DNA of 64,000 bases from contig NZ_REEZ01000002.1 of the NCBI RefSeq assembly GCF_003990445.1, positions 3,121 to 67,120 of the forward strand, in the 5' to 3' direction. A program made the translations under genes and the position numbers. The notes beneath the pieces were generated by a model. That model did not search any database, was not told where the DNA came from, and worked only from the letters and a program-made list of their open reading frames with translations. Every line of letters starts with the position of its first letter. Position 1 is the stretch's first letter. Shown here piece after piece: positions 6,780-27,573 of the stretch. The stretch comes from Pararhodobacter zhoushanensis (GTDB lineage Bacteria > Pseudomonadota > Alphaproteobacteria > Rhodobacterales > Rhodobacteraceae).

Positions 6780-6789
6780 GGTTGCCCCC

Positions 6790-12326: not shown

Positions 12327-12840
12327 CGGCGTGCTCCTTGCGACGCGGCAAGAGCTGGGCCAGCGTGATCAGCACGGCCAGCCCGCAAAGCACGGCCATG
12401 CCTTCGATCACCGGGGCCAGCGGGACTTTCAGCGACTGGGTTGTGCCGTTGTAGCCGCCGATCTGCACGCCCACGACCCAAAGCCGCCAGGCAATCGCTG
12501 CCAGCACCCCGGCCGAGGCCAACAGCACCAAAGGCTCGATCACCGCGCGCAGCCAGCCGGGCATGCGCCCTGTCAGCAGGTCAACCGTGACATGCTCGCG
12601 GTCCAGCGTGGTTGCGGGCAGCCCGACAAAAATCACCGCCGCCAGCAACAGTTCCGTCACTTCCGTCGCCCCCCGAACCGGCGCGCTGAACAGATAGCGG
12701 CCCAGCACATCGGTCACGGTCAGCACCATCATCACCATCAGCAGCACGCTGCAGACGATCTGGATCGCCAGTTTCAGCAGACGCGCCCCCCGATCGGGGA
12801 GCGCGCCAAAGCTGCTGGCCTTGTCGAGCCAGGATTGCAT
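12319..12840 (-). CDS. dctQ: TRAP transporter small permease (DctQ)
   Basis: A 173-residue four-helix protein. The motif LKLAIQIVCSVLLMVMMVLTVTDVLGRYLF followed by RGATEVTELLLAAVIFVGLPATTLDREHVTVDLL is characteristic of DctQ (conserved R-Y, G-A-x-E and R-E-H-V-x-V-D). It starts at 12,840, sharing one base with the dctP stop (TGATG), and runs eight bases into dctM. It stabilises the large permease and the binding-protein docking site. Confidence 0.93.
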   Translation of the reverse strand: MQSWLDKASSFGALPDRGARLLKLAIQIVCSVLLMVMMVLTVTDVLGRYLFSAPVRGATEVTELLLAAVIFVGLPATTLDREHVTVDLLTGRMPGWLRAVIEPLVLLASAGVLAAIAWRLWVVGVQIGGYNGTTQSLKVPLAPVIEGMAVLCGLAVLITLAQLLPRRKEHADG

Positions 12841-13862
12841 CAGTGTCCGGCCTCAAGTGCCGCCACTTCGTCCTGCAGCATCTGATACGCCGCCGCTCCG
12901 TCCACGCCGGTCTCGCTGACCAGCGCCAGATTGGCCGCGACCACCGGGGCAAACCGCGCGCGCAGCTGCGCCACGTCGGCCTCGGTCGCCTGATGGAGCG
13001 TCACGCTGTCCTCCATCGCCGCGCGGCCCGCCGCGTCGGCAGCGTTCCACATCTCTCCGGCGCGGCGCGCCAGCGCCTCACCCAGCAGGGGTTCGATCGC
13101 GGCCTGATCCTCGGCCGACAGACGGTCCCACGCGCCCTGGTTCATCACCATGAACATCGCGGTGTTATAGAGGCCGCCCGGCGCGGTGAAGGCACTGCTC
13201 ACCAGATCCTGCAGGTTGAAGAAATTCACCGTCTCGAACGGGAAAAAGATCCCGTCCGCCACGCCCTGACTGAGCAGCTCATAGGCCCGCGACGACGGCC
13301 CTTCGATCGGCACCGCCCCCAGCAGCGTCGCCAGATCATGCGCCACGGTCGAGCCGACGCGGATCTTCAGCCCGTCGATGTCATCGACGCTTTCGATGGG
13401 CGAGGACGAGAAGATCTCGCCCGGTCCATGGGTGAACACCGACAGCACCTTGACCCCCGCGTATTCGCCGGCTTGCGCCAGCATCGCGTCCTGCACGCGC
13501 CAATAGGCCACCGACGACACCACCGCGTCATCGCTCAGGAACGGCAGTTCCGCCAGCGCCGCCGTGCGGAACCGGCCCGGCGTATAGCCCTGCACCGAAT
13601 AGGTGATGTCCGCGACGCCGTTCAGCGCCAGATCGAACGCCGCCGAGGGCGGCCCCAGCGGCGCGGGCAGGATCTGGATCTGCACGCGGCCCTCGGTGAC
13701 CCGCGCGACATCCTCGGCGAAGGGCACCATCAGCTGCGCGACCTGCGGATGCGAGGGCGGCAGCCAGCTGTTGAGCGTCAGAACCGTCTGTGCCTCAGCC
13801 CCGCCAAACGCCAGCGCGGATGCCAGCCCGGTGACGCCGAGTAATTTCGAGATTGCATTCAT
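12840..13862 (-). CDS. dctP: TRAP transporter periplasmic binding protein (DctP)
   Basis: A 340-residue exported protein of the DctP family. The signal peptide ends near GGAEA, and the mature part begins QTVLTLNSWLPPSHPQVAQLMVPFAEDVARVTEGRVQIQI, the usual opening of this family. The conserved arginine region is GLKIRVGSTVAHDLATLLGAVPI, where the Arg normally holds the ligand carboxylate, and QGVADGIFFPFETV follows. The ATG at 13,862 is preferred over a GTG six bases upstream because GGAAGGA is spaced eight bases from it. Gene order is dctP-dctQ-dctM, divergent from the MarR gene at 13,986. Confidence 0.92.
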   Translation of the reverse strand: MNAISKLLGVTGLASALAFGGAEAQTVLTLNSWLPPSHPQVAQLMVPFAEDVARVTEGRVQIQILPAPLGPPSAAFDLALNGVADITYSVQGYTPGRFRTAALAELPFLSDDAVVSSVAYWRVQDAMLAQAGEYAGVKVLSVFTHGPGEIFSSSPIESVDDIDGLKIRVGSTVAHDLATLLGAVPIEGPSSRAYELLSQGVADGIFFPFETVNFFNLQDLVSSAFTAPGGLYNTAMFMVMNQGAWDRLSAEDQAAIEPLLGEALARRAGEMWNAADAAGRAAMEDSVTLHQATEADVAQLRARFAPVVAANLALVSETGVDGAAAYQMLQDEVAALEAGH

Positions 13863-13985
13863 TTTCACGTTCCTTCCTGTTGTTGAGTGTTATAGTTAGG
13901 CAAAACTGGGCCCGCTCTGGCGCTAGCCGGTCGCGGGCAAGCAGCGCGGCACTGCGCGGCGCGGGCTGTCTGAGGACTTCGAGCG

Positions 13986-14447
13986 ATGACGAACCAACCG
14001 CGCCTGGATGAAAATCCCAGCCAATTCAAACGCCACTGGCCGTTCTTCTGGGTCAGCCATGTCAGCGCGGGCTACGTGAACGCACTGGAACGGCGGATCA
14101 AACCGCTGGGGCTGGACATCGCCCGCTGGCGCGCGCTGATGTGCCTGTTTGAAGACGAATACCTGTCGATCTCGGAAATCGCGGATTTCTCGGCGCTCAA
14201 GCTGAACACCACGACCAAGATCGTGCAGCGGATGATCGGCGAGAAGCTGGTCACCACCCGCGTGCGCCCCAGCGACGGGCGCGTGACCGAGGTGTGCCTG
14301 ACGCCCGACGGCGACCGTCTGCGCAAAGCTGCGATGGAAGAGGCAAAGCGGATCTTCGAGGCGACCTTCGAGGCTTTTACCGACGACGAGGTCGCGCAGT
14401 TGAACACCTTGCTGGAAAAGGCGCAGATCCAGTTGCAAAAGCTCTGA
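13986..14447 (+). CDS. iacR: MarR-family regulator, probable IacR
   Basis: A 153-residue MarR-type dimeric repressor. The winged helix is visible as LSISEIADFSALKLNTTTKIVQRMIGEKLVTTRVRPSDGRVTEVCLTPDGDRL (about residues 57-110), with the wing arginine-aspartate pair (PSDGR) conserved. In the described iac clusters a MarR repressor, IacR, is relieved by IAA or a metabolite. Here the gene is divergent from the TRAP operon and convergent with iacG, at the far end of the minus-strand catabolic operon from its promoter. Naming as IacR rests on context and family, not on a residue signature. Confidence 0.75.
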   Translation: MTNQPRLDENPSQFKRHWPFFWVSHVSAGYVNALERRIKPLGLDIARWRALMCLFEDEYLSISEIADFSALKLNTTTKIVQRMIGEKLVTTRVRPSDGRVTEVCLTPDGDRLRKAAMEEAKRIFEATFEAFTDDEVAQLNTLLEKAQIQLQKL

Positions 14448-14463
14448 TCCCTGCGCGCCCATC

Positions 14464-14961
14464 TCAGCGTTCTGTCGCCAGATGGTGATAGTCCCGGCTG
14501 AACCACACCAGCCCCTGCCGCGCGGTCTCGCGCATCCGCACCGCGACGACCTCGCAGAAAAACACCGTGTGGGTGCCCTGCGCGTGGCTCGCTGTCACCT
14601 TGCAATCGAAGGCGACATTGGCATCGGCCAGCACCGGCGAGCCGGTCTCGGCCAGCGTCCAGTCGCCATGGGAAAAGCGGTCCACGCCTTCGACATAGCG
14701 CGCGAACAGACCCGACAGCGCCTGATGGTCGGCGGCCAGCACGTTGACGCAGAGCACCGCGTTCTGCACGAACCGGTCATGCGCAAAGGCGTTGCGGTTG
14801 ATGCAGACCAGCAGCGTCGGCGGGTTGTCGGTGACCGAGCACACTGCCGAGGCGGTGATGCCATGCCGCCCGCCCGGCCCATCGGTGGTGATCAGGTTCA
14901 CCGCAGCGCCCAGACGGCTCATGCCCTCGCGGAACGCCTGTTGTGTCTCGGTCAGTTCCAT
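14464..14961 (-). CDS. iacG: Flavin reductase (HpaC/RutF-like), probable IacG
   Basis: A 165-residue NAD(P)H:flavin oxidoreductase of the HpaC-like split-barrel family. The pattern FREGMSRLGAAVNLITTDGPGGRHGITASAVCSVTDNPPTLLVCINRNAF is the classic FMN-binding region, and a DYHHL motif closes the chain. Such enzymes supply reduced flavin to a partner monooxygenase; the partner here is most likely the acyl-CoA-dehydrogenase-like IacA. It is the last gene of the minus-strand operon and follows the ferredoxin-reductase gene by 14 bases. In described iac clusters IacG is the flavin reductase. Confidence 0.85.
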   Translation of the reverse strand: MELTETQQAFREGMSRLGAAVNLITTDGPGGRHGITASAVCSVTDNPPTLLVCINRNAFAHDRFVQNAVLCVNVLAADHQALSGLFARYVEGVDRFSHGDWTLAETGSPVLADANVAFDCKVTASHAQGTHTVFFCEVVAVRMRETARQGLVWFSRDYHHLATER

Positions 14962-14975
14962 CGCGCTGTCCCCTT

Positions 14976-15944
14976 TCAGATGTCCAGCACCAGCCGCGCA
15001 CCCTTGGCGCGCGAGCAGCAGGCGCAGATCAGATCGCCGTCTTCGCGTTCGTCGTCGGTCAGAAACTGGTCGCGGTGGTCGATCTCGCCCTCAAGCACGT
15101 CGGTGACACAGGTGCCGCAGACGCCCTCTTCGCATTTGACCTCAAGCTTCACACCCGCCGCCATCAGCGCCTTGGCGATGGTGTCCTTGGGACCGACCGT
15201 GACCGTGATCCCCGAAGCGCGCGCCTCGACCTCGAACCCCGCGCCGGTCAGATCCACATCCGCCGAGAAATACTCGCGGTGCACCTGCCCGCTGGCGTGC
15301 CCAGCCGTCTCGGCCGCGCCCAGAACCCAGTCCATGAAACCCTGCGGCCCGCAGACATAAAGATGCGTGTCCGCCGCCGGGGCGGGCAGATCGCGGGCCA
15401 GATCCAGCTTCTGCTCTGCCGCGCCATCGTCGAAGTGGAACACAACCCTGTCGGCAAAAGGCGCGTCGCGCAGCGTATCCAGAAACGCAGTGACGCCCTC
15501 AGAGCGCGTGCAGTAATGCAGCACGAAATCCCGGCCCAGCGCGTGCAGCCGCTGGGCCATGGCGATCATCGGCGTGATGCCGATCCCGCCGCCGATCAGC
15601 ACCGATTGCGCGGCGTCCTCGGCCAGCGGGAAATGATTGCGCGGACCCTCGACGCTCAGCTCGGCCCCGACGACCGCAAGCCTGTGCACAGCCTCCGAGC
15701 CGCCCCGGCTGGCCGGGTCTTTGAGCACACCGATCTCGTAAAACCCGGTTTCCGCCGGATCCGAGCACAGCGAATATTGCCGCCACAGGTCAAGCGTGTG
15801 CTCGACCAGATGCAGGTCCAGATGCGCGCCCGCGGTGAACGGCACCAAGGTGCCCTGCACCGGCTCCAACCGGATGCGGGCGATTGCGCCGCGGTCATCC
15901 AGCCGCTCGGTGACGCGCAGGGTCAGGGGGGTGCCAGTGCTCAT
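14976..15944 (-). CDS. iacF: Oxygenase reductase (FMN/NAD/2Fe-2S, PDR type), probable IacF
   Basis: A 322-residue phthalate-dioxygenase-reductase-like protein. The N-terminal flavin domain has FTAGAHLDLHL and RQYSLCSDP; the nucleotide domain has LIGGGIGITPMIAMAQRL and YVCGPQGFMDWV; the C-terminal plant-type 2Fe-2S domain has C-E-E-G-V-C-G-T-C (Cx4Cx2C) with the fourth cysteine in LICACCSR. It passes electrons from NAD(P)H to the Rieske oxygenase encoded just upstream. The ATG at 15,944 overlaps the SDR stop as ATGA; an upstream ATG at 15,977 would extend the overlap and is less likely. Confidence 0.88.
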   Translation of the reverse strand: MSTGTPLTLRVTERLDDRGAIARIRLEPVQGTLVPFTAGAHLDLHLVEHTLDLWRQYSLCSDPAETGFYEIGVLKDPASRGGSEAVHRLAVVGAELSVEGPRNHFPLAEDAAQSVLIGGGIGITPMIAMAQRLHALGRDFVLHYCTRSEGVTAFLDTLRDAPFADRVVFHFDDGAAEQKLDLARDLPAPAADTHLYVCGPQGFMDWVLGAAETAGHASGQVHREYFSADVDLTGAGFEVEARASGITVTVGPKDTIAKALMAAGVKLEVKCEEGVCGTCVTDVLEGEIDHRDQFLTDDEREDGDLICACCSRAKGARLVLDI

Positions 15945-16699
15945 CGCGGATAGATCCCGCCGTTCACGTCCCAGCACGCGCCATTGACGAACGCCGCCTT
16001 GGGGCTGGCCAGCATCACCACCATCTCGGCCACGAAGTCAGGATCGCCCAACCGGCCCACCGGAATGGCCGCCATGGCCTTGTCGATGCCGTCACCCAGC
16101 ACCTCACGCACCAGCGGCGTGTCCATCGGCCCCGGCGCGATGGCGTTGCAGGTCACCCCGAACGCCGCCAGATCGCGCGCGAATACCTTGGTCAGTGTCA
16201 GGATCGCGCCTTTCGAGGCCGCATAATGCGCACCCGTCGCCGTGCCGCCGTTCTGCCCGGCCAGCGAGGCCATGTTGACGATCCGCCCATAGCCGCGCGT
16301 CTTGAAATAGCGGCCAAAGATCTGGCTGCCGGCAAAGGTGCCGCCCGCGTTGGTGGTCAGGATGGCGTTGAAATCGGCCGGGTCGATGTCGAGCACCGGC
16401 TTGACCGCCGTGCGCGCGGCGTTGTTGACCAGCACCTCGACCGAGCCCCAGCGATCCACCACCTTGTCCAGCACCGCCTGAAAATCCTCAGGCTTTGTGA
16501 CGTCCAGCGTCGCGGCAACCGCCGTGTCGCCCGCCAGATCCAGCGCGTTGGCCAGTGCCAGCGCCGGTTCGTGCACGATGTCGGTGATGATGACGCGGTA
16601 GCCCGCGCGGTGCAGCGCGCGGGCGGCAACGGCACCAAAGCCGTTCGCCGCGCCGGTGATCACGGCGGTCTGGATTTGCTCTGGCAATGGGGCCCCCAT
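15941..16699 (-). CDS. iacE: Short-chain dehydrogenase/reductase, probable IacE
   Basis: A 252-residue classical SDR. The Rossmann motif is TGAANGFG (15-22), NNAA follows near 92, and the catalytic Ser145, Tyr159 and Lys163 lie in MASLAG and HYAASKGA. The C-terminal end VNGACWDVNGGIYPR is typical of the family. In the iac pathway an SDR of this kind acts on the hydroxylated indole-acetate intermediate. It overlaps iacD by one base and iacF by four, so it is embedded in the operon. Substrate assignment depends on the neighbours. Confidence 0.85.
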   Translation of the reverse strand: MGAPLPEQIQTAVITGAANGFGAVAARALHRAGYRVIITDIVHEPALALANALDLAGDTAVAATLDVTKPEDFQAVLDKVVDRWGSVEVLVNNAARTAVKPVLDIDPADFNAILTTNAGGTFAGSQIFGRYFKTRGYGRIVNMASLAGQNGGTATGAHYAASKGAILTLTKVFARDLAAFGVTCNAIAPGPMDTPLVREVLGDGIDKAMAAIPVGRLGDPDFVAEMVVMLASPKAAFVNGACWDVNGGIYPR

Positions 16700-17196
16700 C
16701 AGAACAGATAGCTGAGCGAGGTCAGCATCCCGTCAGAATTGAGCAACCGCGCCACCTTCTGCGCGATCTTGAACCCGCCGTCGGGCTGGCGGATCAGCGT
16801 GTAGGTGGTGTTGGCGGCGAACAGGCGCTGGCGGCCGAACTTGTCTTCGACCAGCTGCTCGGCGCAGCGGACGGTGACGGCATCGCCCTCGACTTTCTCG
16901 ATCACGAAGCGCGACATCGCCCGCACCGTCTGCGCCGCAGGCGCGGACGAGATAGAGAACCCTTGCCGGAAGCGCCCGATGCGGTCCCGCCGCATCTTGT
17001 CGTTGTCGTAGCACAGGTTCAGGCTGTTGGCGTAATCCTCGCCCTCGCCCATCGGCATGATGTAGAGCCCATCCTTGGTCCACAGCTCCAGCCAGTCCTC
17101 ATAGGCCTTGGCGTCGAGCATATCGGCCTCGGCCCAGATGAAGGCGGCGACCTGCGACAGCAGCGCAAGATCCTGAGTGTTGGTCACGTCCTTCAT
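16699..17196 (-). CDS. iacD: Ring-hydroxylating dioxygenase beta subunit, probable IacD
   Basis: A 165-residue small subunit of a Rieske non-heme iron oxygenase (NTF2-like fold). Recognisable segments are VAAFIWAEADMLDAKAYEDWLELWTKDGLYIMPM at the N-terminus and RQGFSISSAPAAQTVRAMSRFVIEKVEGDAVTVRC in the middle, ending in ARLLNSDGMLTSLSYLF, close to the usual beta-subunit end. The ATG at 17,196 overlaps the alpha-subunit stop as ATGA; a GTG 21 bases upstream is possible. The subunit is structural in the alpha3beta3 enzyme. Confidence 0.9.
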   Translation of the reverse strand: MKDVTNTQDLALLSQVAAFIWAEADMLDAKAYEDWLELWTKDGLYIMPMGEGEDYANSLNLCYDNDKMRRDRIGRFRQGFSISSAPAAQTVRAMSRFVIEKVEGDAVTVRCAEQLVEDKFGRQRLFAANTTYTLIRQPDGGFKIAQKVARLLNSDGMLTSLSYLF

Positions 17197-18467
17197 TGCG
17201 CCATCATCCTTTTCCACATCGCGTAGGCCGCGCGCATGCCGGTTTCGGCGCTGATATGCCCCTTCGGCCCCACTTCGCCGGGCACCTCGTCGATCAGCCC
17301 GCGGTTCACCAGAATCGGCAGCGCCTCGCCGCCCTTGGTCCCGCGCTGCACGCGCTCCCAGACCTCGGCGTCATCGGGCGAGCCAAAGCCCATCGGGCCC
17401 TGAAAATGCTCATGCAGCCGCAAACGCATCCGGTTGGCGGCGGCAGGACCGCCGTCCATGCCCAGCGCCAGGTGGCGGATATCGGTGCGCTCGACGGTGA
17501 CCGGGGTCAGCACGCGGAAGAAGGCCAGACTGAAGGACACGTTGGGGAACAGGTTCAGGTTGAACCCGGCCCCGCCAACGGCGCGCACGATCTTCTTGAC
17601 CTGAGCCTCGGGATACCCGTCGTCACGCAGCTCCTGCGCCAGCTCGGCAAAGCGGTCGGGGATCGGCGCGTCGAGATTGTCATCCAGATCGACCAGCTCG
17701 GGGATCATCACCATCACCGAATGGCCGTTGCCCAGATCCTCGATCCAGCCTTTGCCCTTTTCGAGAAAGTCGAACATGTCGTTCGTCTCGCCGTCGAGCG
17801 TCTGCATGAAGCTCTTGTGCACGACCGGGAAGTGGTAGCCGTCGGTGGTGTTCTCCAGCTGAACCTTCCAGTTCATCGGCACAGTGAACTGATGCTCGCC
17901 CAGCACCTTGATCGGGAACCCGCCGCCCTGCTTCATGAACAGGTCGATGTAGCGGCACACCTGCGGGCCAAGGAAATCGACCAGCGGCTCGGCGTCCTCG
18001 TTGAAGGTCGCGAACACCATGCCGTTGTAGCTTTCGGCCCGCAGCTTGAGCAGACCGTGCTGCGCCTTGTCGAAATCATCGCCGTATTGCTCAGGGTACG
18101 GCACGGCGCGCAGGCTGCCGTCCAGACCATAGCCCCAGCCGTGATACGGGCACTGGAACGAGCTGGTCTTGCCCTTCTTGACCTCACAGACCGTCGCCGC
18201 CCGGTGGCGGCAGCGGTTGACCATGACGTGGATCTTGTCCTTGCGGTCGCGCACCACGATCACCGGCTCAAGCCCGACGGTGGACAGCTTGAACGAGCCC
18301 TTGTCGGGGAATTCGCTTTCATGCGCGACCCAGACCCAGGTCCGCTTGAAGACGCGCTCCATCTCTTCGGCGAACAGCTCAGGGTCTTCGTACATCGCGG
18401 TCGCGATTTTGGAGTCGGCACTGTAAAGCGCGTCGAGATCGCTGAATTTTGGCGTGTCCAGGGACAT
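17193..18467 (-). CDS. iacC: Ring-hydroxylating dioxygenase alpha subunit, probable IacC
   Basis: A 424-residue Rieske oxygenase large subunit. The 2Fe-2S site is C86-x-H88 (NRCRHRAATVC) and C106-x2-H109 (QCPYHGW). The mononuclear iron site is DGYHFPVVHKSF with His212 and His217. The similarity pattern is that of the benzoate/anthranilate-type oxygenases. In the iac pathway IacCD with IacF hydroxylates the oxidised indole-acetate intermediate, leading to catechol. Here the downstream ring-cleavage genes look adapted to hydroxyquinol instead, so the true product should be checked. Confidence 0.92.
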   Translation of the reverse strand: MSLDTPKFSDLDALYSADSKIATAMYEDPELFAEEMERVFKRTWVWVAHESEFPDKGSFKLSTVGLEPVIVVRDRKDKIHVMVNRCRHRAATVCEVKKGKTSSFQCPYHGWGYGLDGSLRAVPYPEQYGDDFDKAQHGLLKLRAESYNGMVFATFNEDAEPLVDFLGPQVCRYIDLFMKQGGGFPIKVLGEHQFTVPMNWKVQLENTTDGYHFPVVHKSFMQTLDGETNDMFDFLEKGKGWIEDLGNGHSVMVMIPELVDLDDNLDAPIPDRFAELAQELRDDGYPEAQVKKIVRAVGGAGFNLNLFPNVSFSLAFFRVLTPVTVERTDIRHLALGMDGGPAAANRMRLRLHEHFQGPMGFGSPDDAEVWERVQRGTKGGEALPILVNRGLIDEVPGEVGPKGHISAETGMRAAYAMWKRMMAQ

Positions 18468-18471
18468 GGGT

Positions 18472-18843
18472 TCAGCTCCTGTGGGCTTGAGGGATTTCCA
18501 GCGCGCGGCCCAGACGGGCCTCGACGCTCATGTATTTCCAAAGGCGGTGCCCCTCGTCGCTCACCTCGATGGTGCGCAGCAGGTTGCAGGCAGCCTTGAC
18601 CGCGTCGCGGTTGGGGAAATCGACCAGCATGTACCAGGTGAAGGGAAACCCGCGCGAGGTGCCGACCATCGTCTGGTCATCATCGAAGGTGCCGATGATC
18701 GTGGCCCCCTCGATACCGGCGACGCCTGACATATAGGCCTGGGTTGCCTTCCAGACCTTGCCGATCTGGTCGAAGGGCAGATCGAAAAAGCTCTGGTGGT
18801 TGTTCATGCACAGCAAGGTGCGGATCGGGGTCTGGTCAGTCAT
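18472..18843 (-). CDS. iacB: Small protein, probable IacB
   Basis: A 123-residue protein with no motif that I can assign with certainty. It is soluble, has no signal peptide, and contains IEGATIIGTFDDDQTMVGTSRGFPFTWYMLVDFPNRDAVKAACN, which looks like an EthD/dimeric alpha-beta barrel pattern. Its place between the acyl-CoA-dehydrogenase-like gene and the oxygenase alpha subunit is that of iacB in described clusters, where the role is unsettled. An AAGGA site precedes the ATG. A part in handling an unstable intermediate is conceivable but unsupported. Confidence 0.6.
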   Translation of the reverse strand: MTDQTPIRTLLCMNNHQSFFDLPFDQIGKVWKATQAYMSGVAGIEGATIIGTFDDDQTMVGTSRGFPFTWYMLVDFPNRDAVKAACNLLRTIEVSDEGHRLWKYMSVEARLGRALEIPQAHRS

Positions 18844-18888
18844 GAAACGGTCCTTTCGGAAAATCAGGGGCAGCCCGCAGGGGGCGGA

Positions 18889-20034
18889 TCAGGGGAAGCC
18901 GGGCACAGTAGGCTGCTCGAACAGCGTGGCCCCGGCAGCGGTCCAGGTGCCCTCGCCCATAAAGGCGTGCTGGGCGACGCAGGCCGCGTCGATCATGCAG
19001 CGGCCCAGCGGATGCCCGGTGAACATCGCGTCCGAGCCGCCCAGAACGAAGGCCAGCCGCGCGGCCTCGGCCCCGTCGCGCGCGGCCTTGCTGGCTACCA
19101 TCCGCAGACGCACATGGGTCTGGCGGTCGACCTCGCCCTTGGAGAGCATCTGCTCCCAGGCCTGATCAATCGTGTCGTAAAACGCCGCCCGCGCGCCCAT
19201 CAGCAGACCCTCGGCCTTGGCGTATTCGGCCTGCACATAAGGGCGCGCGCCCGGGCTGGGGGCACCGGTGATCGACGCCCGGCGCATCGCGTCGCCGTGC
19301 AGCCAGTCCAGCGCCTCGCGCGCAGTGCCCAGCGCGACAACGGACAGCACCTGCGCCGCCAGCGCCATCGCCGGATAGTGGAACACACGGTCCTCCATCA
19401 TCGGCTTGCCCCCGCGGATAAAGGTCCACTCGGGCGCGACCACGACATCCTCGACCACCGTGTCGTGGCTGCCGGTCGCCGACAGACCGACCGAACGCCA
19501 GGTCTCGTCCACCGTCACCTTGCTGCGCGGCATCACCGCGACGCGCGGCAGCGGGCTGTTGTCGCCGCTCACCTTGATCCCGGCACCGACGATATCGGCC
19601 CCCATCACGCCCGAGCACCACGGCCAGCGCCCGCGCACCTTGAACCCGCCGTCGACAATCTCGGCCGGTTGCGGCGGGAACATCGCGCCCGCGAACACCG
19701 TGTCGGGGTTCTTGGCGAAGATCTGGGCGTAGGTGTCGACCGGCAGCGCGGCCAGATAGGTCGCCGAAACCCCGAAGCTGGCCACCCAGCCGGTCGAGGC
19801 GTCGGCGGCAGAGATATCCTCGATCAGACGGCAAAACTGCGACGGGGTCAGCCCGTCGCCGCCAAACCGCTCGGGCACAAAGGCGCGGTAAACACCGATC
19901 TTCTTCAGCTCGGCCACCATATCGACCGGCACATGGCGCAGCGCGGTGAACTCGGCCCGCCGGGCGCGGATCTGTGCCAGCACGCGGGCTTTCTCCGCCG
20001 CCAGATCGGGTTTCAGCTCGGTTGTCACACTCAT
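18889..20034 (-). CDS. iacA: Acyl-CoA-dehydrogenase-like flavin monooxygenase, probable IacA
   Basis: A 381-residue protein of the acyl-CoA dehydrogenase fold, closer to the class D flavin monooxygenases (HpaH/HsaA/IacA type) than to true dehydrogenases. Seen: FVPERFGGDGLTPSQFCRLIEDISAADASTGWVASFG near 50-90, GGFKVRGRWPWCSGVMGADIVGAG in the middle beta domain, and the C-terminal helix region ending AQHAFMGEGTWTAAG. The usual catalytic glutamate region of dehydrogenases is not evident. IacA hydroxylates the indole ring of IAA using reduced flavin, probably from IacG. The start shares one base with the amidase stop (TGATG). Confidence 0.82.
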   Translation of the reverse strand: MSVTTELKPDLAAEKARVLAQIRARRAEFTALRHVPVDMVAELKKIGVYRAFVPERFGGDGLTPSQFCRLIEDISAADASTGWVASFGVSATYLAALPVDTYAQIFAKNPDTVFAGAMFPPQPAEIVDGGFKVRGRWPWCSGVMGADIVGAGIKVSGDNSPLPRVAVMPRSKVTVDETWRSVGLSATGSHDTVVEDVVVAPEWTFIRGGKPMMEDRVFHYPAMALAAQVLSVVALGTAREALDWLHGDAMRRASITGAPSPGARPYVQAEYAKAEGLLMGARAAFYDTIDQAWEQMLSKGEVDRQTHVRLRMVASKAARDGAEAARLAFVLGGSDAMFTGHPLGRCMIDAACVAQHAFMGEGTWTAAGATLFEQPTVPGFP

Positions 20035-21197
20035 CAGACAGCGTCCTTTTCCTTGAAGGCCGGAAGGCTTTCGGCCAGCCATTTCGCAATGGCGCACAGC
20101 CGGGCATCGTCATTCTTGCGCCCCACCAGTTGCAGCCCGACCGGCAGCCCGTCGGACGGGCGGCGCGAGGGGATCACGATCGCGGGGTGGCCGCTCAGGT
20201 TGAACGGGCGCAAAAAGCGCGTCAGCGGCAGCACGGTCTTGGGGTCTTGCGCCTCGGTCAGCGTCGGCGGCACCATCGGCAGCGCCGGGGTGATCAGCGC
20301 CTCAGCCGTCGCGAGCACGGCGTCGACCTCGGCGGTGAACGCGGCGCGCACGGCTTCGGCCTGCGCCAGCTGGTCGGGGGTGATCGCGCGGCTGGCGGTC
20401 AGGCGGGCACGGATGTCAGCACCCAACGGCGCGCCCTCATCCAGCAGATGCCCGAAGGCCGCGACGGTTTCCGCGCCGATCACCGTCATGCCCGCCGCAA
20501 ACGCCGCCTCCAGCGAGGGCAGCGTCACGTAGTCGACCTCGGGCGCGCCTTCCATCAGGGCATAGACCAGCGCCTGACCGACCTCGTCGTCCAGCTCGGC
20601 CTTGATGCGCGCCAGACGCGGCGCGGCGGTCAGGGTAACGCGGGCAAAGCTCGGGTCCATCGCCTGCATCGCGGCGATCAGCATGTCCATGTCGCGGGCG
20701 AAAGCGCCGACGCAATCCAGCGACGACGTCGCCGGGCTCAGCCCCCTGCGCGAGATCCGCCCATAGGTCGGCTTGATGCCATAGACGCCGCAGCAGATCG
20801 CCGGTTGGCGCACCGAACCGCCGGTATCCGTGCCAACGCCGAAATCGCAGATCCCCGCCGCCACCGCCACCGCCGAGCCCGAGGACGAGCCACCCGGTAT
20901 CCGGTCCGGCCAGTGCGGGTTGACCGGCGTGCCGTAAGCCTCGTTCACCCCGGTCATGCCGTAGGCCAGCTCGTGCATGTTGGTCTTGCCGGTGATCCGG
21001 CACCCGGCGTTCAGCAACGCCTGCACCACATCGGCATGACGGTCAGCAGGCACTGCGTCGTCAAAGGCGCGAGAGCCGCAGCGCGTCGCGTAACCGGCAA
21101 TATCAATGCAATCCTTGACCACCACGCGCAGGCCGTCACCGCCCAGATCCAGCGGGGCGACAAGAGCGTGTTTTGCAACAGTCGGGCGGAGGGACAT
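20034..21197 (-). CDS. iacH: Amidase-signature hydrolase, probable IacH
   Basis: A 387-residue amidase-signature enzyme. The Ser-cisSer-Lys triad is visible: Lys28 in VVVKDCIDIAG, the cis-serine around 104 in GGSSSGSAVAVAAG, and the nucleophile Ser128 in GTDTGGSVRQPA. The protein is shorter than many family members (around 450-500). The family hydrolyses amides; in iac clusters IacH is an amidase-like protein whose exact step is uncertain, and indole-3-acetamide hydrolysis is another possibility. It is the first gene of the minus-strand operon, with the operator-like repeats directly upstream. Confidence 0.82.
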   Translation of the reverse strand: MSLRPTVAKHALVAPLDLGGDGLRVVVKDCIDIAGYATRCGSRAFDDAVPADRHADVVQALLNAGCRITGKTNMHELAYGMTGVNEAYGTPVNPHWPDRIPGGSSSGSAVAVAAGICDFGVGTDTGGSVRQPAICCGVYGIKPTYGRISRRGLSPATSSLDCVGAFARDMDMLIAAMQAMDPSFARVTLTAAPRLARIKAELDDEVGQALVYALMEGAPEVDYVTLPSLEAAFAAGMTVIGAETVAAFGHLLDEGAPLGADIRARLTASRAITPDQLAQAEAVRAAFTAEVDAVLATAEALITPALPMVPPTLTEAQDPKTVLPLTRFLRPFNLSGHPAIVIPSRRPSDGLPVGLQLVGRKNDDARLCAIAKWLAESLPAFKEKDAV

Positions 21198-21229
21198 GGG
21201 TGAGTCGGCTTTTCATTGCGTGATTTACT

Positions 21230-21244
21230 ACGTGAAAATTACTG
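21230..21244 (+). promoter_or_regulatory. Candidate iac operator, copy 1
   Basis: ACGTGAAAATTACTG, matching the consensus ACRTGAAWATTACYG. It lies 33 bases upstream of the iacH start, where a repressor would block the minus-strand operon. It sits inside a TTTAC/GTAAA inverted repeat. Confidence 0.5.
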
Positions 21245-21394
21245 TAAATGGAGAAGCGATCAAGCACCAATTTCGTATGATTTGCTGTTTTTTCATGGGC
21301 TTATGAGGTCAAGCACACAGCACTGCGGGCCGGTCGCCTGTGGCGGACCAGCCAGGGAGCGCCCTGTCTTCGGGCGATCATCTTTCTAACGATA

Positions 21395-21409
21395 ACATGA
21401 ATATTACCG
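21395..21409 (+). promoter_or_regulatory. Candidate iac operator, copy 2
   Basis: ACATGAATATTACCG, second copy of the consensus ACRTGAAWATTACYG, inside a GATAAC/GTTATC inverted repeat (21,391-21,414). Confidence 0.5.
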
Positions 21410-21460
21410 TTATCTTTTGCGCAATTCGCAAGACTGTTTTGCGGCGGTACGATCGGATTT

Positions 21461-21475
21461 ACGTGAATATTACCG
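21461..21475 (+). promoter_or_regulatory. Candidate iac operator, copy 3
   Basis: ACGTGAATATTACCG, third copy, 66 bases after copy 2 and 76 bases before the iacI start. With the flanking TTT it also matches the copy upstream of the maleylacetate reductase gene at 25,826-25,842. Confidence 0.5.
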
Positions 21476-21551
21476 CTTGACCCGAGACCCAGTGTCTTTA
21501 CCGTTCCCGCATCATCCCCCGGCCCCCAACGGCCGATGCTCAGGAGGCCCC

Positions 21552-22118
21552 ATGACCCAAGACACCCAACTCGCCGCCCTCACCCGCCGCATCGAGATCC
21601 TCGAAGCCGAGGCCGAGATCCGCCGGATTCAAGCCCGCTACATGTTCCTGTGCGACACGCCGATGCCGGAATTCGGCGTCGCCGATGATGCCGAACGCAT
21701 CGACCTGATCATGGCGCTTTATACCGAAGATGCCGTCTGGGAAGGCGTGGGCGAATACTACGACAACCAGTTCGGCCGCGCCGTCGGTGCTCCGGCGATC
21801 CGCAAGCACTTCGAGGGCTTCTGGGGCGGCAAGCAAGACCCGGCGCTGATCCTGAACTGCCATTACCTGACGTCCGAGCAGATCTACGTGAACGCCGATG
21901 GCGTCACGGCGGATGGACAGTGGGTCCACATGCAGCCCTGGCTCTTTTCCGACGGCAAGGCGCTGCTGCGCTCGTCGCGGCTGTTCAACGGGTTCCGCAA
22001 AGAGGCCGACGGCCAGTGGCGCATCACCCGGACGCGGACCGAGAACGTCTTTGTTGCCCCGCTGCCCGCGACCTGGGCGTCGGACTATCCGTCCAAGTCG
22101 ATGCTGATGAAACCCTGA
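21552..22118 (+). CDS. iacI: SnoaL/NTF2-like protein, probable IacI
   Basis: A 188-residue SnoaL_4/NTF2-like fold protein. It opens with a coiled-coil-like helix (LTRRIEILEAEAEIRRIQARYMFLCD), followed by MALYTEDAVWEGVG, GAPAIRKHFEGFWG, LILNCHYLTSEQIYV and ARTRTENVF-like strands typical of the fold. Members act as small isomerases, hydrolases or dehydratases. In described iac clusters IacI is a protein of this type needed early in IAA breakdown. Here it is alone on the plus strand, divergent from iacH. AGGAGG lies four bases before the ATG; an in-frame extension upstream runs through the operator region and is rejected. Confidence 0.75.
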   Translation: MTQDTQLAALTRRIEILEAEAEIRRIQARYMFLCDTPMPEFGVADDAERIDLIMALYTEDAVWEGVGEYYDNQFGRAVGAPAIRKHFEGFWGGKQDPALILNCHYLTSEQIYVNADGVTADGQWVHMQPWLFSDGKALLRSSRLFNGFRKEADGQWRITRTRTENVFVAPLPATWASDYPSKSMLMKP

Positions 22119-22140
22119 GGTCACGCGAAACATAGCAAAA

Positions 22141-22167
22141 GGGGCGGCCCGCAGGCCGCCCCTTTTT
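22141..22167. terminator. Bidirectional terminator between iacI and aldehyde dehydrogenase
   Basis: A perfect 9-bp stem GGGGCGGCC / GGCCGCCCC with a CGCA loop, an A-tract on the left and TTTTT on the right. It lies between convergent genes (iacI plus, aldehyde dehydrogenase minus) and fits a classic two-way intrinsic terminator. Confidence 0.9.
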
Positions 22168-22171
22168 GGTG

Positions 22172-23680
22172 TTAGCGATACGCGATGCAGACCGCCTTGG
22201 TTTCGAGGTAATTGTCCAGCGCCCCCGCCCCATGCTCGCGCCCGATGCCCGATTGCTTGACGCCCCCGAACGGCATGTTCTGGTCGGGAATGTTGTGGCT
22301 GTTGACCCAGACCGTCCCGGCCTGAATGCGCGGCACATAGCGCATCATCTTGTTGAGATCGCTGGTCCAGATCGACGCGCCCAGACCATAGCGCGTGTCA
22401 TTGGCCATGCGGATCGCGTCCTCGGGGTCGTCAAAGGGCGTCATGGTGACGACGGGGCCGAAAATCTCTTCCTGCATCAGGCCCATGTCCTGACGCACAT
22501 CGGTGAACAGCTCGGGTGCGACGTAGAAACCGGCCTCGGGCGCGCTGCCACCGATGACGGGCGTCGCCCCCTGCTCGATCCCGCGCGCGATGCAGGCTTT
22601 GACATGCGCCTGATGCCGGGCCGAGACCACCGGGTTGATCTGGTTGCCGGGGTTCAGGCCGGGGCCGATCGGCAGGCTGCGGGTGACATTGGCGATCACC
22701 TCCAGCGCCTTCTCATAGATGCCTTTCTGCGCATAGATCCGCGTCCCGGCGCAGCAGGTCTGCCCCGAGTTGAAGAACGCGCCGATCCCCGCCGCCGCCC
22801 CCAGCAGGTCCAGATCCATATCGTCGAACATCACCATCGGGGCCTTGCCGCCCAGCTCCAGCGTGACGCGCTTCATGTCCTTCATCGCCTGCACACCGAT
22901 CAGCTTGCCGGTCTCGGTCGAGCCGGTGAAGGTGATCTTCGCGATGCCCGGATGCGCCACCAGCGGCGCGCCCGCATCCTCGCCCATGCCGGTGATCACA
23001 TTGACCACGCCCTCGGGGAACCCGGCCTCAAGACACAGCTGCGCCAGACGGATCGAGGTCAGCGGCGTCTCTTCCGCCGGTTTCAGCACCACCGTGCACC
23101 CCGCCGCCAGCGCGGGCGCGATCTTCCACACCGCCATGTTCAGCGGGAAGTTCCACGGCGTGATCGCGGCCACCACGCCGACCGCCTCTTTGCGGGTATA
23201 GGCCTGATACTGCATGCCCGGCGGGATCGCGATGGACACATCCAGCGTCGCGCCCTGGATCTTCGTCGCCCAGCCCGCCATATAGCGGATGTACTCGGCC
23301 GAGGATTGCACCTCGACCAGACGCGAGAGCATGATCGACTTGCCGTTGTTCAGCGTCTCCAGCTGCGCGAGTTCCTCGCCGTTGTCGTCGATCAGCTGCG
23401 CCAGTTTCAGCATCAGGGTCTGCCGCGTGACCGGCAGCATCTGCGACCACGGCCCGGTGAACGCCGCCTGCGCCGCGCGCACAGCCAGATCCACATCTTC
23501 CGCCGTACCAGCCGGAACCTGTGCCAGTTCCAACCCGGTTGCGGGGTTATAGACCGGATAGGTCGCGCCCTTGGCCGCTGCGACCTGATCGCGGCCGATC
23601 AGCATCTTGGGAGCCGTGAGGAAATCGGCAACCGCCGGCGCGATATCCGAGACGAGGGCGTCAGGGGGGCTGATCTTCAT
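22172..23680 (-). CDS. NAD(P)-dependent aldehyde dehydrogenase
   Basis: A 502-residue class I-type aldehyde dehydrogenase. Catalytic residues are all visible: Asn177 in TPWNFP, Glu275 in LELGGK, and Cys309 in FFNSGQTCCAG; the cofactor motif FTGSTETG is at 251-258. The pattern is close to phenylacetaldehyde and betaine-aldehyde dehydrogenases. It is the last gene of the maleylacetate reductase-dioxygenase-aldehyde dehydrogenase operon. Its place beside the iac genes suggests oxidation of an aryl- or indole-acetaldehyde to the acid, which is inference. The start at 23,680 excludes an Arg-rich upstream extension that would overlap the dioxygenase gene. Confidence 0.88.
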   Translation of the reverse strand: MKISPPDALVSDIAPAVADFLTAPKMLIGRDQVAAAKGATYPVYNPATGLELAQVPAGTAEDVDLAVRAAQAAFTGPWSQMLPVTRQTLMLKLAQLIDDNGEELAQLETLNNGKSIMLSRLVEVQSSAEYIRYMAGWATKIQGATLDVSIAIPPGMQYQAYTRKEAVGVVAAITPWNFPLNMAVWKIAPALAAGCTVVLKPAEETPLTSIRLAQLCLEAGFPEGVVNVITGMGEDAGAPLVAHPGIAKITFTGSTETGKLIGVQAMKDMKRVTLELGGKAPMVMFDDMDLDLLGAAAGIGAFFNSGQTCCAGTRIYAQKGIYEKALEVIANVTRSLPIGPGLNPGNQINPVVSARHQAHVKACIARGIEQGATPVIGGSAPEAGFYVAPELFTDVRQDMGLMQEEIFGPVVTMTPFDDPEDAIRMANDTRYGLGASIWTSDLNKMMRYVPRIQAGTVWVNSHNIPDQNMPFGGVKQSGIGREHGAGALDNYLETKAVCIAYR

Positions 23681-23721
23681 GTCGCTGTCTTTCTGTAAAA
23701 AGGAACGGGAAACCGCAGCGC

Positions 23722-24561
23722 TCAGGCGCGCTGCAAAATGAAATCGAACGGCGCGCGCCAGATCTCGGACGCGGTATCGACCCGCTCGAAATCGACGATC
23801 AGCGCATCCTTGACGCCGAACACGGCGTCCGAGGTCAGGTAGGGATCGCCCGCCACGAAAGTGTGGGTGATCACGCGGCGAAAGCCCGGGGCGGAAACCA
23901 GAAAATGCATATGCGCGGGCCGCCACGGATGCCGCCCCAGCGCCGCCAGCATCTTGCCGACCGGCCCGTCATCGGGGATCGGGTACGAGATCGGGCGGAT
24001 ACCGCGAAACGCATAGCGCCCGTCCGGTCCGGTGCGGAAAATCCCGCGGTTGTTCCATTGCGGCTGGATGCCGGGCTGCTGCACGTCATAGAACCCGTCG
24101 GCATTGTCGGACCAGACGTCCAGAGAGGCACCTTCGACCGGGTTGCCGTCCAGATCGGTCACCCGCCCCTCGAACAGACAAATCTCGCCCTTGCCATCGG
24201 CGCTGATGCACGCGCCCATCGCCCGCTCAGGCGCGCCCTCGACGTGGAACGGGCCGAAAACCGTGGTCGGCGTCGCGCCCTGCTCGACGCGGTGGTTGAT
24301 CGCATCGACCAGCATCGACACGCCCAGCACATCCGACAGCAACACGAATTCCTGCCGCGTATCGCCACAGATCTGACCGGTCCGGGTCAGGAAATCGACG
24401 GCCACGCCCCATTCCTCTTCGGTCAGCTCTACGTCCTTGATGAAGGCGTGCAGGTGTTCGACCAGTGCCCCCATCACCCGGCGCAGGCGCGGGTCCGCAC
24501 CGTCGCTCATCCGGGCGTTGACTGTCTGGGTCGAGGTCTCTTCGGTCAGATAGGCGCTCAT
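23722..24561 (-). CDS. chqB: Intradiol ring-cleavage dioxygenase, hydroxyquinol 1,2-dioxygenase type
   Basis: A 279-residue non-heme Fe(III) dioxygenase. The iron ligands are visible: Tyr158 (DGFYDVQ), Tyr193 (ISYPIP), His217 and His219 (RPAHMHF). An N-terminal helical dimerisation domain precedes the catalytic barrel. The pocket segment VFGPFHVEGAP (101-111) and LLSDVLGVSMLVDAINHR are those of hydroxyquinol 1,2-dioxygenases; catechol 1,2-dioxygenases normally carry an I-E-G-P-L/Y-type segment there. The expected reaction is hydroxyquinol to maleylacetate. It overlaps maleylacetate reductase by four bases (ATGA), which strongly supports this. Activity on catechol as well is not excluded. Confidence 0.86.
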   Translation of the reverse strand: MSAYLTEETSTQTVNARMSDGADPRLRRVMGALVEHLHAFIKDVELTEEEWGVAVDFLTRTGQICGDTRQEFVLLSDVLGVSMLVDAINHRVEQGATPTTVFGPFHVEGAPERAMGACISADGKGEICLFEGRVTDLDGNPVEGASLDVWSDNADGFYDVQQPGIQPQWNNRGIFRTGPDGRYAFRGIRPISYPIPDDGPVGKMLAALGRHPWRPAHMHFLVSAPGFRRVITHTFVAGDPYLTSDAVFGVKDALIVDFERVDTASEIWRAPFDFILQRA

Positions 24562-25688
24562 GCTCTCTCCTCCAGCATCGGCGGTGCGCCCGCCTGCGCG
24601 CGGGCCAGCAACGCCCGCAAGGGGGCCGCCTCCAGCGCGCGCGGGTTCCAATAGGGATTGGCCAGCGCCAGCGCGGTGGCGCGGTCCAGCCCGTCCTCGG
24701 GCATGCCCAGCGCCGCCAGCGAGGTCGGCACACCCCCCTCAGCCGCCAGCGTGAACAGCGCCCGCGCCGGGTCCGGCCCCAGCACCCGCGCCAGCCGCGC
24801 CATCACGCCGGGGATCGCCGGGGCGTTATAGGCCAGCGCATGCGGCAGGATGACGGTGTGGGTTTCGGCGTGGGGCAGCCCGAAGCTGCCGCCCAGCGTG
24901 TGACAAAGCTTGTGATGCAGCGCCATGCCGACCGCCCCCAGACAGATGCCGCACAGCCACGCGCCATACAGCGCCTGCGACCGCGCCTGCCCGTTGCCCG
25001 GCTCGCGCACGATCACCGGCAGCGCGGCGCTGATCGCGCCGATCGCCTCAAGCGCCATCAGATCGACCACCGGATTGGCGTTCTGGGCATAGAGCGCCTC
25101 GACCGCGTGGGCGATGGCGTTCAGCCCGCTGGTCACCGACATCGACACCGGCAGGCCCAGCGTCAGCGCCACATCATAGATCACCACCTCGGGCAGCACC
25201 TTGTCGCTGCTCTGCGTGCGCTTCACGCCGCCCTCGGTCTCGCCCAGGATCGGCGTCATCTCGGACCCGGCATAGGTCGTGGGCAACACCACCTGTGGCA
25301 AATCCGTGCGCAGGGCCAGGGCCTTGCCCAGCCCGGTCGTCGAGCCGCCGCCAATCGCGATCAGCACATCCGCCTTGACGTCGCCCAGCACGCCCAGCGC
25401 GGTTTGCGTCACCTCGACCGGCGTGTGCATGGCCGCGCCGTCAAAGATCCCCACCGCCCGCGCGCCCAGCAACTGCGCCACCGCGTCGGCTTGGCCGCGT
25501 TGCTGCGGCGTCGACAGGATCAACGCGCGGCTGGCCCCCAGCGCGTCCACCTCGGCGGGCAGTTGCGCCAGTGTGCCGGTGCCGAACACCACGCGTCCGG
25601 GGCGGGCAACATAGGTGAAGCCCCGGCCATCGTAACCCGGAAGGGGCACGGGGCCGGCCGCGTGCAGGGGGGCATTGTCTTGCGTCAT
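24558..25688 (-). CDS. Maleylacetate reductase
   Basis: A 376-residue iron-alcohol-dehydrogenase-fold enzyme of the maleylacetate reductase branch. Seen: FTYVARPGRVVFGTGTLAQLPAEV at the start, AIGGGSTTGLGKALAL (NAD(P)H site), LPTTYAGSEMTPILGETEGGVKRT, and GMALHHKLCHTLGGSFGLPHAETHTVILPHALAYN, all typical of this branch. It reduces maleylacetate to 3-oxoadipate. First gene of an operon with the dioxygenase and aldehyde dehydrogenase. The ATG at 25,688 is preferred over longer frames, because the upstream residues fall in the divergent promoter region shared with the LysR gene. Confidence 0.9.
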   Translation of the reverse strand: MTQDNAPLHAAGPVPLPGYDGRGFTYVARPGRVVFGTGTLAQLPAEVDALGASRALILSTPQQRGQADAVAQLLGARAVGIFDGAAMHTPVEVTQTALGVLGDVKADVLIAIGGGSTTGLGKALALRTDLPQVVLPTTYAGSEMTPILGETEGGVKRTQSSDKVLPEVVIYDVALTLGLPVSMSVTSGLNAIAHAVEALYAQNANPVVDLMALEAIGAISAALPVIVREPGNGQARSQALYGAWLCGICLGAVGMALHHKLCHTLGGSFGLPHAETHTVILPHALAYNAPAIPGVMARLARVLGPDPARALFTLAAEGGVPTSLAALGMPEDGLDRATALALANPYWNPRALEAAPLRALLARAQAGAPPMLEERA

Positions 25689-25868: not shown

Positions 25869-26789
25869 ATGGACCGCTTCTCGGAACTGACCGCTTTTGT
25901 GCGTGTCGCAGACGAACGCAGCCTGACCCGCGCCGCCGATACGCTGGGCATGTCGGTCTCGGGCGTCAGCCGTCACCTCAGCGGGCTGGAGAACCGGCTG
26001 GGCGTGCGGCTGGTCCAGCGCACCACCCGCCATCTGTCACTCACACCCGAGGGCGAGCGCTTCGCCGAGCATGCCCGCGACATCCTCGCCACGCTGTCGC
26101 AGGCCGAGGACAGCATCAGCCGTGTCTCGGTCGAACCGCGCGGAGTTTTGCGTGTCGGGGCCTCGCTGTCCTTTGCGCAGATCCACCTGATGCCGGTGAT
26201 CCGCGCCTTTACCCGCCGCTATCCGCAGGTTGACGTCGATCTGCAAATCTCGAACCGGTATTTCGACGTGATCGACAGCGACCTCGATCTGGCGATCCGC
26301 ATTCGCCGGGTCGAGATGGACAGCTCGGTCACCATCCGTAAACTGGCCGAGATCCCGCGGGTGCTGGCCGCCTCGCCCGACTACCTCAAGACCCATGGCA
26401 CGCCGCAAACCCCCGCCGATCTGGCCGCGCATGACCTGCTGCTCTACACCCTGTCGGATGACTGGGAACACCTTTCCTTCACCCGCGGGTCCGAGACCCT
26501 CCGCCTGCCGGTCAAGGGCCGCATCACCGCCAATGACGGCCAGCTTTTGCGCCGCGCGGCGCTGGACGGGATCGGCATCCTGACCCAGCCGATTTATGTG
26601 ATCGACGCCGATCTTGATGCCGGACGGCTGGTGCGCGTGCTGCCCGACTGGGATCTGCCGCGCCTGACCACCAATGTGGTCTTCCCCTCGCGCGTCCACC
26701 TGCCCGCGCGCACGCGCCTGTTCATCGACGCGCTGGTCGAGCATTTCCGCGCCCATGCCTTCGATGGCCGCTGGAACGCGCCGGTCTGA
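25869..26789 (+). CDS. LysR-family transcriptional regulator
   Basis: A 306-residue LysR regulator of the DsdC/AaeR-like branch. The N-terminal winged HTH is MDRFSELTAFVRVADERSLTRAADTLGMSVSGVSRHLSGLENRLGVRLVQRTTRHLSLTPEG; an effector domain follows from about residue 90. It is divergent from the maleylacetate reductase operon and is the natural candidate to control it, probably in response to a ring-cleavage intermediate. The long open frame upstream of 25,869 lies antisense to the reductase gene and is not part of this protein. It converges on the IclR gene with eight bases between. Confidence 0.88.
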   Translation: MDRFSELTAFVRVADERSLTRAADTLGMSVSGVSRHLSGLENRLGVRLVQRTTRHLSLTPEGERFAEHARDILATLSQAEDSISRVSVEPRGVLRVGASLSFAQIHLMPVIRAFTRRYPQVDVDLQISNRYFDVIDSDLDLAIRIRRVEMDSSVTIRKLAEIPRVLAASPDYLKTHGTPQTPADLAAHDLLLYTLSDDWEHLSFTRGSETLRLPVKGRITANDGQLLRRAALDGIGILTQPIYVIDADLDAGRLVRVLPDWDLPRLTTNVVFPSRVHLPARTRLFIDALVEHFRAHAFDGRWNAPV

Positions 26790-27559: not shown

Positions 27560-27573
27560 GCGAACATTACCCC

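Follow-up and report, generated by a model that had tools for sequence, protein, structure and literature searches.

The window analysed here is a 64,000-nucleotide stretch of Pararhodobacter zhoushanensis (contig NZ_REEZ01000002.1; host contig 696 kb, genome 4.83 Mb, 99.99% complete) that carries a complete iacR/iacA-I (indole-acetate) gene set at 13986-22118 and, adjoining it at 22172-25688, an operon encoding a putative maleylacetate reductase (MAR), hydroxyquinol 1,2-dioxygenase (HQD) and arylacetaldehyde dehydrogenase (ALDH). All of these genes proved to be open reading frames at the positions given in Table 1, and reading the minus strand gives the iac order H-A-B-C-D-E-F-G, which together with the family matches bears out the initial annotation of the locus as iacA-I plus iacR in content and nearly in order. 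Its description of a hydroxyquinol-type dioxygenase overlapping a maleylacetate reductase also held, as the MAR and HQD frames share 4 bases (ATGA) and the PDB scores fit; HQD and ALDH are separated by 41 bp. The small protein in the iacB position gave no Pfam or NCBIfam match in the profile search of the window proteins.

Table 1. Features of the iac locus and its flanks (window positions)
Feature	Positions	Strand	Basis
iacR, MarR-family regulator	13986..14447	+	open reading frame and family match
iacG, flavin reductase	14464..14961	-	PF01613
iacF, 2Fe-2S/FAD reductase	14976..15944	-	PF00111, PF00175
iacE, short-chain dehydrogenase	15941..16699	-	PF13561; YxxxK motif found
iacD, ring-hydroxylating dioxygenase beta subunit	16699..17196	-	PF00866
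iacC, ring-hydroxylating dioxygenase alpha subunit	17193..18467	-	PF00355, PF00848; Rieske and D-H-H motifs
iacB-like small protein	18472..18843	-	conserved position; 39-75% identity across related iac loci
iacA, acyl-CoA-dehydrogenase-like monooxygenase	18889..20034	-	PF08028
iacH, amidase	20034..21197	-	PF01425
iacI, SnoaL-like protein	21552..22118	+	PF13577
ALDH, putative arylacetaldehyde dehydrogenase	22172..23680	-	NCBIfam and PDB matches; same direction as HQD
HQD, putative hydroxyquinol 1,2-dioxygenase	23722..24561	-	PDB matches and iron-ligand motifs
MAR, putative maleylacetate reductase	24558..25688	-	PDB matches
LysR-family regulator, divergent from MAR	25869..26789	+	family match
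PcaR-type IclR regulator	26798..27556	-	TIGR02431 above cut-off
pcaI, pcaJ, pcaF, 3-oxoadipate to succinyl-CoA and acetyl-CoA	27666..30256	+	TIGR02429, TIGR02428, TIGR02430 above cut-offs
TRAP transporter DctM/Q/P	11040..13868	-	Pfam matches for DctM and DctP; also an iac neighbour in many related loci
AraC-type regulator, divergent from aminotransferase	10009..11037	+	family match; identical placement in Sagittula
class III aminotransferase, proposed amine deaminase	8488..9861	-	PRK07481 above cut-off
TctC, TctB, TctA transporter	5286..8442	-	TctC PF03401; TctA 80%, TctB 55% to Sagittula copies
aromatic-amino-acid-decarboxylase-like protein, lead only	2457..3860	-	best PDB match 4obu, 197 bits

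The closest solved relatives of HQD are 6-chlorohydroxyquinol 1,2-dioxygenase (8r2x, 435 bits), PnpC (3n9t, 280 bits) and hydroxyquinol 1,2-dioxygenase (1tmx, 274 bits), whereas the top catechol 1,2-dioxygenase structure reaches only 144 bits and the NCBIfam models for catechol and chlorocatechol enzymes score far under their cut-offs. HQD also contains Y158, Y193, H217 and H219 within GFYDV, SYPIP and RPAHMHF, which we take from the family to be the two-Tyr two-His iron ligands. The top solved relative of MAR (3jzd, 422 bits) is named merely as an iron-containing alcohol dehydrogenase, and the maleylacetate reductases 3hl0 (420 bits) and 3w5s (418 bits) follow within 4 bits of it. On these matches both enzymes are assigned to the hydroxyquinol type; MAR acts on maleylacetate, which is not a product of catechol ortho-cleavage. 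The best NCBIfam model for ALDH is the phenylacetaldehyde dehydrogenase StyD (NF045735), at 680 bits and under the cut-off of 850, and its second PDB match is the phenylacetaldehyde dehydrogenase 4o5h (523 bits), so that we describe it as arylacetaldehyde dehydrogenase-like, short of the StyD membership cut-off.

A catABC set elsewhere in the genome, which the initial annotation had named as the case against a variant pathway, was sought and not found. Genome searches gave neither CatB nor CatC, and no CatA-type enzyme, both intradiol dioxygenases of the genome being closer to hydroxyquinol than to catechol enzymes; the second of them (C34:354923) was rejected as a CatA candidate on this ground. 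The two strongest of four extradiol matches are the homoprotocatechuate dioxygenase HpaD, above its cut-off, and a protein that falls well short of the cut-off for catechol 2,3-dioxygenase, and meta-cleavage of catechol was rejected accordingly. The missing CatC tells us only what the window's organism can do with catechol. The second intradiol enzyme (locus L002) stands by an IclR-like gene and a gene judged by eye to be citrate-synthase-like; it belongs to a group ∼40-47% identical to the window HQD, of which L071, L089, L095 and L136 have comparable genes close to iac. Two other loci from Rhodobacteraceae with iac sets (L101 and L129; G794 and G811) gave no intradiol dioxygenase, CatC or catechol 2,3-dioxygenase-like match at the thresholds used.

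IacC is found at E ≤1e-100 in 12 of the 394 genomes of the window's family, the window's own counted. The initial annotation had suggested comparing iac neighbourhoods, and we did so on IacC for 81 loci, which are the window plus the best 80 of 476 confirmed stretches and so are biased toward IacC near the window's, with some stretches ended by contig edges. Gene presence was scored by tblastn because mechanical gene calls missed genes, with thresholds of at least 60% identity for HQD and ALDH. In 26 of the 81 loci an HQD gene is located no more than 10 kb from iacC, and MAR accompanies it in 25 of these, the exception (L093) being cut at a contig end; given one or two HQD genes per 4-5 Mb genome, about one such locus or fewer would be expected by chance on a rough estimate. 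The hosts are Rhizobium and relatives, Agrobacterium, Azospirillum, Acidocella, Celeribacter, Phaeobacter, Halomonas, Salinicola and Larsenimonas, and further HQD-linked iac sets are found on plasmid records of Sagittula, Martelella, Shinella and Gemmobacter. The link is scattered over the branches of the IacC tree (86 rows), where the HQD label takes 13 changes, at least 6 of them on well-supported branches, and the iac-linked copies require 6 changes in the HQD tree, both trees being quick searches without bootstrap. Gene layouts vary as well: MAR-HQD-ALDH precedes iac in Rhizobium, MAR-HQD follows the TRAP genes in Celeribacter, and in Halomonas ventosae iacI is followed by MAR-HQD-APC-ALDH-aminotransferase, with an ALDH 35% identical to the window's. 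A LysR homologue adjoins the MAR/HQD genes in Rhizobium, Azospirillum and Gemmobacter too. ALDH is present in 17 of 26 HQD loci versus 5 of 55 others (p = 3e-7), and this association persists (p = 5e-5) in a collapsed set of 54 entries, in which one locus per genus and gene pattern was kept and loci <17 kb were dropped.

In 29 of the 81 loci iac has different neighbours, namely an ApbA-like reductase and/or class II aldolase (both genes in 24, TRAP in 21; example genes at L018:16589-18391). These loci have the iac core, and often TRAP, in common with the window, whereas HQD, ALDH and amine-deaminating genes are found in none of the 29 at the thresholds used. In Halomonas/Vreelandella an almost identical IacC stands beside HQD-MAR in one locus (L108) and beside ApbA/aldolase in another (L107), and the ApbA/aldolase genes occupy the spot after iacI that MAR-HQD holds.

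The HQD-linked loci also differ from the rest in amine deamination. An aminotransferase, TynB or FAD oxidase gene lies within 10 kb in 10 of 26 HQD loci versus 5 of 55 others (p = 0.004; collapsed set p = 0.012). Genome-wide we looked for TynB ('tyramine oxidase subunit B') in 50 genomes, comprising those of 24 of the 25 non-window HQD-linked loci (without L093), 3 whose HQD is on the iac contig at a greater distance and 23 of the 29 ApbA/aldolase loci (without L128, L134, L135, L138, L139 and L140), and in 6 more. TynB is present in 24 of 27 HQD-linked genomes (23 of the 24 with HQD within 10 kb and 1 of the 3 with HQD further off) versus 1 of 23 in the ApbA/aldolase group (p = 1e-9), and within Halomonadaceae only the counts are 5/6 versus 0/6. 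All six additional genomes, which have ALDH or amine genes yet no linked HQD, contain TynB; in four of these six loci (L079, L082, L086, L131) another HQD-MAR pair, 51-65% identical, is located elsewhere in the genome, as found in a genome-wide HQD look that covered 50 of the 55 HQD-unlinked loci (all except L128, L137, L138, L139 and L143). The three TynB-less genomes among the HQD-linked ones, those of Halomonas ventosae, Roseibium and Stappia, have a class III aminotransferase by MAR-HQD, and a gene 78-81% identical to the window's aminotransferase immediately precedes the MAR-HQD pair of Sagittula, Roseibium and Stappia. The same role seems to be taken by either of two unrelated deaminating systems. 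That the HQD link goes with amine deamination points to 5-hydroxytryptamine (serotonin).

Several relatives hold both lower branches. One stretch of Rhizobium wuzhouense contains pcaD-catA-catC-catB, APC-TynB-Rid-FAD oxidase and LysR-Dabb-MAR-HQD-ALDH-iac, and in R. lemnae catB-catC-catA directly adjoins Dabb-MAR-HQD-ALDH-iac, while in R. oryzicola, Acidocella, Azospirillum lipoferum 4B and Halomonas campaniensis the two branches share the iac contig and lie somewhat further apart. The two lower branches of the Rhizobium islands probably correspond to two ring products, and as both cat and HQD are kept in one island, HQD is unlikely to be a mere replacement of CatA.

Gene content and recurrence together suggest a cluster for the mineralisation of 5-hydroxyindoles via hydroxyquinol, with serotonin and/or 5-hydroxyindole-3-acetate (5-HIAA) as the likeliest substrates, and we put the probability of this reading at roughly two in three. 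In such a pathway the TRAP and Tct systems would import the substrate, the aminotransferase would convert serotonin to 5-hydroxyindole-3-acetaldehyde and ALDH would oxidise this to 5-HIAA; deamination of serotonin followed by aldehyde oxidation would thereby explain the amine and aldehyde genes. IacA (with IacG) and IacE would then oxidise C2 and C3, and the dioxygenase IacCDF would attack ring carbons C3a and C7a, as the freeing of catechol from indole-3-acetic acid (IAA) requires, the two hydroxyls of catechol marking these positions, while IacH would hydrolyse the side-chain amide. With a C5 hydroxyl, para to C7a, the freed ring would be 1,2,4-trihydroxybenzene (hydroxyquinol), the substrate of HQD, which would yield maleylacetate for reduction by MAR to 3-oxoadipate, with PcaIJ and PcaF finishing the route. 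The genes for the steps beyond 3-oxoadipate, pcaIJF, are close neighbours of HQD-MAR. IacA of Caballeronia glathei is reported to oxidise 8 of 11 tested side-chain variants and not to oxidise tryptamine (PMC7225977), so an amine would need prior conversion to the acid. 5-Chloro-IAA is reported to stop growth of Acinetobacter on IAA, the authors hypothesising that iac enzymes turn substituted IAA into substituted catechols such as chlorocatechol (PMC12502551). For the broader proposition we see even odds: a widespread and repeatedly assembled pathway (aminotransferase or TynB/Rid/FAD oxidase, ALDH, iac, HQD and MAR) would mineralise serotonin, the Rhizobium islands would run a parallel route from tryptamine/IAA to catechol, and the window's organism would be a 5-hydroxyindole specialist unable to complete IAA degradation.

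A number of points weigh against the serotonin reading. No sequence proves the 5-hydroxyl, the case for which is that MAR-HQD needs hydroxyquinol and that no recurring extra ring hydroxylase was seen, and a 6-hydroxyl would yield the identical triol. CatC is present in 17 of 24 HQD-linked genomes versus 6 of 23 in the ApbA group (absent in 17 of 23), scored in the same 50 genomes as TynB, so its absence neither marks the HQD group nor argues for hydroxyquinol on its own. The identity thresholds were chosen after the gene layouts had been seen, and 9 of the 26 HQD loci have no ALDH at 60%, four of these nine having a 35-37% identical ALDH beside HQD. Control for relatedness is partial, as the tree offers only 6 well-supported independent pairs, of which a mean of 4.5 go the expected way and 0.1 the opposite way (median p 0.125 in a sign test). 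No TynB turned up in the window's own genome, so that deamination there depends on the aminotransferase, which lies ∼4 kb away from iac, on the far side of the TRAP genes, and is present within 10 kb in just 3 of the 26 HQD loci (the window, L117 and L125). Acidocella (L125) has both aminotransferase and TynB, so the two systems are not strictly alternatives, and the 'tyramine oxidase' could serve tyramine rather than an indoleamine. Finally, the same HQD family occurs apart from iac, next to ABC transporters.

This last point leads to the most serious competitor, in our view an unlikely one, in which HQD-MAR serves another aromatic (e.g. a resorcinol-type compound) and is merely a neighbour sharing the 3-oxoadipate end while iac degrades IAA. 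The non-iac clusters, which combine this HQD family with MAR and branched-chain ABC transporters, are consistent with it, as are the adjoining pcaR/pcaIJF genes; in the clusters of L150, L153, L155, L157-L159 and L165 HQD seems to serve a separate purpose. However, a mere neighbour would not be expected to recur with iac across several families in varied gene orders, to be operonic with an arylacetaldehyde dehydrogenase-like gene or to track an amine oxidase genome-wide, and the catechol branch that IAA would call for was not found in the window's genome. The related enzyme families and the presence of iac in a genome where CatA was not found could instead suggest that HQD cleaves IAA-derived catechol, standing in for CatA. 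Without CatB and CatC the resulting muconate would be a dead end and MAR would be left without substrate, while R. wuzhouense, R. lemnae, R. oryzicola and Acidocella hold catA, catB and catC homologues plus HQD on the iac contig. We rejected this substitution, which we consider very improbable, since CatB and CatC were not found in the window's genome and relatives keep cat genes plus HQD-MAR. The initial annotation had left three options, namely a trihydroxybenzene made from the indole substrate, a dioxygenase taking catechol and an iac-like set acting on a different indole compound; the same evidence disfavours the second and leaves the first and third favoured jointly.

The third hydroxyl might also be added by an iac or unseen enzyme to a ring derived from plain IAA or tryptamine, as IacA and IacC are oxygenases and the amine module would fit tryptamine equally. 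We hold this to be improbable: no added hydroxylase was seen recurring in the HQD-linked loci, among whose neighbouring frames many lack identification, almost identical IacC proteins stand beside different modules in Halomonas/Vreelandella, and the twin-branch clusters retain their cat genes. Little likelihood, comparable to that of the CatA substitution, attaches to a halogen or methoxyl as the ring substituent (bromo-, chloro- or methoxyindoles), with MAR and HQD taking the product after dehalogenation or demethylation. The best solved HQD relative, a 6-chlorohydroxyquinol dioxygenase, and a P450 by the cluster in Sagittula and Phaeobacter would agree with such a substrate, but the HQD-MAR flanks (ALDH, LysR, PcaR, pcaIJF, iacI) include no dehalogenase, chloromuconate cycloisomerase or dienelactone hydrolase, these flanks being the part of the genome searched for them.

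Around this core the initial annotation was silent on ALDH, on the genes at 5286-13868 (TctCBA, aminotransferase, AraC, TRAP), on pcaR/pcaIJF at 26798-30256, on the spread of the link and on its tie to amine deamination. The aminotransferase-TctCBA run ends, behind a GlcD-like gene (3861-5249), with the decarboxylase-like gene, which could supply an amine from an amino acid. Neither the decarboxylase-like nor the GlcD-like gene had a match in the 141 other loci >5 kb, with the window as positive control, and the decarboxylase was rejected as a fixed pathway member (0/141). At 808-2650 lie a TAT-signal molybdopterin-type oxidoreductase and its membrane partner, MsrP/MsrQ-like by eye and apparently unrelated. 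Among the related loci, HQD-linked iac clusters contain a class II histone-deacetylase-like amidohydrolase at L061:9037-10158 and in L062, L065, L068, L070 and L111, and L154 and L182 have one of the same class next to HQD or TynB; N-acetyl amines, N-acetylserotonin for example, are possible substrates for deacetylation by this enzyme. The P450 of Sagittula (L060:21501-24808) and Phaeobacter (L144:15481-18784) is accompanied, beside HQD-linked iac, by a glutamine amidotransferase and a glutamine-synthetase-like gene, a group that we take to resemble gamma-glutamyl-amine catabolism genes. In Halomonas olivaria (L132, ∼8451-18320) iacA, iacD and iacI each appear to be split in two and iacC gives only a short match, which may reflect either decay of the cluster or errors in the sequence.

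In the open-access literature, judged on titles, abstract openings and passages, we found no description of an iac-hydroxyquinol or bacterial serotonin-mineralisation pathway, and no match for serotonin together with maleylacetate reductase. The serotonin reading offers a testable gene-level hypothesis for environmental bacteria consuming the serotonin and 5-hydroxyindole acids of plants and animals. It would also imply that an 'iac' set does not necessarily signal auxin use, as its neighbours suggest a second ring product in 26 of 81 loci, and if this is true, annotations inferring IAA degradation from iac genes alone would mislead.

Among known systems the closest reference is Pseudomonas putida 1290, whose pathway, as the initial annotation correctly stated, takes IAA to catechol and has catR-catBCA upstream of iac (PMC6624763). 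The window has the same upper set as iacABCDEFG-R-HI of that strain, IacA-IacI with a MarR-type regulator, a likeness by family rather than by protein comparison; in contrast to catR-catBCA, no catB or catC was found in its genome, and HQD-MAR, ALDH and the aminotransferase adjoin iac. The window's gene order is close to the iacHABICDEFG of Acinetobacter, as given in PMC12502551. Compared with an Acinetobacter iac cluster, IacC is 63% identical, A, C, D, E, F, H and I range over 32-63%, R reaches 34% and G only 24%, and B is unmatched, the window's iacB matching Novosphingobium (57%) and Caballeronia (43%) instead. The plasmid iac sets of Acinetobacter sp. SH20PTE14 and Novosphingobium sp. EMRT-2 (L169, L171) are 63-64% identical in IacC and 48-58% in IacE, but the Acinetobacter plasmid has catB and catC, Novosphingobium has catBCA-pcaD near iac, and neither has HQD or MAR within 12 kb. 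The hydroxyquinol lower pathway serves, for example, in 4-nitrophenol or resorcinol degradation, typical uses that start at simple phenols; the window has the same two enzyme families, with its copy wired to a pathway predicted to remove an indole ring. The cluster thus contains every member of iacA-I plus iacR and lacks the catechol-to-catABC feature, and by sequence we classify it as an iac pathway in its working, with a different predicted ring product.

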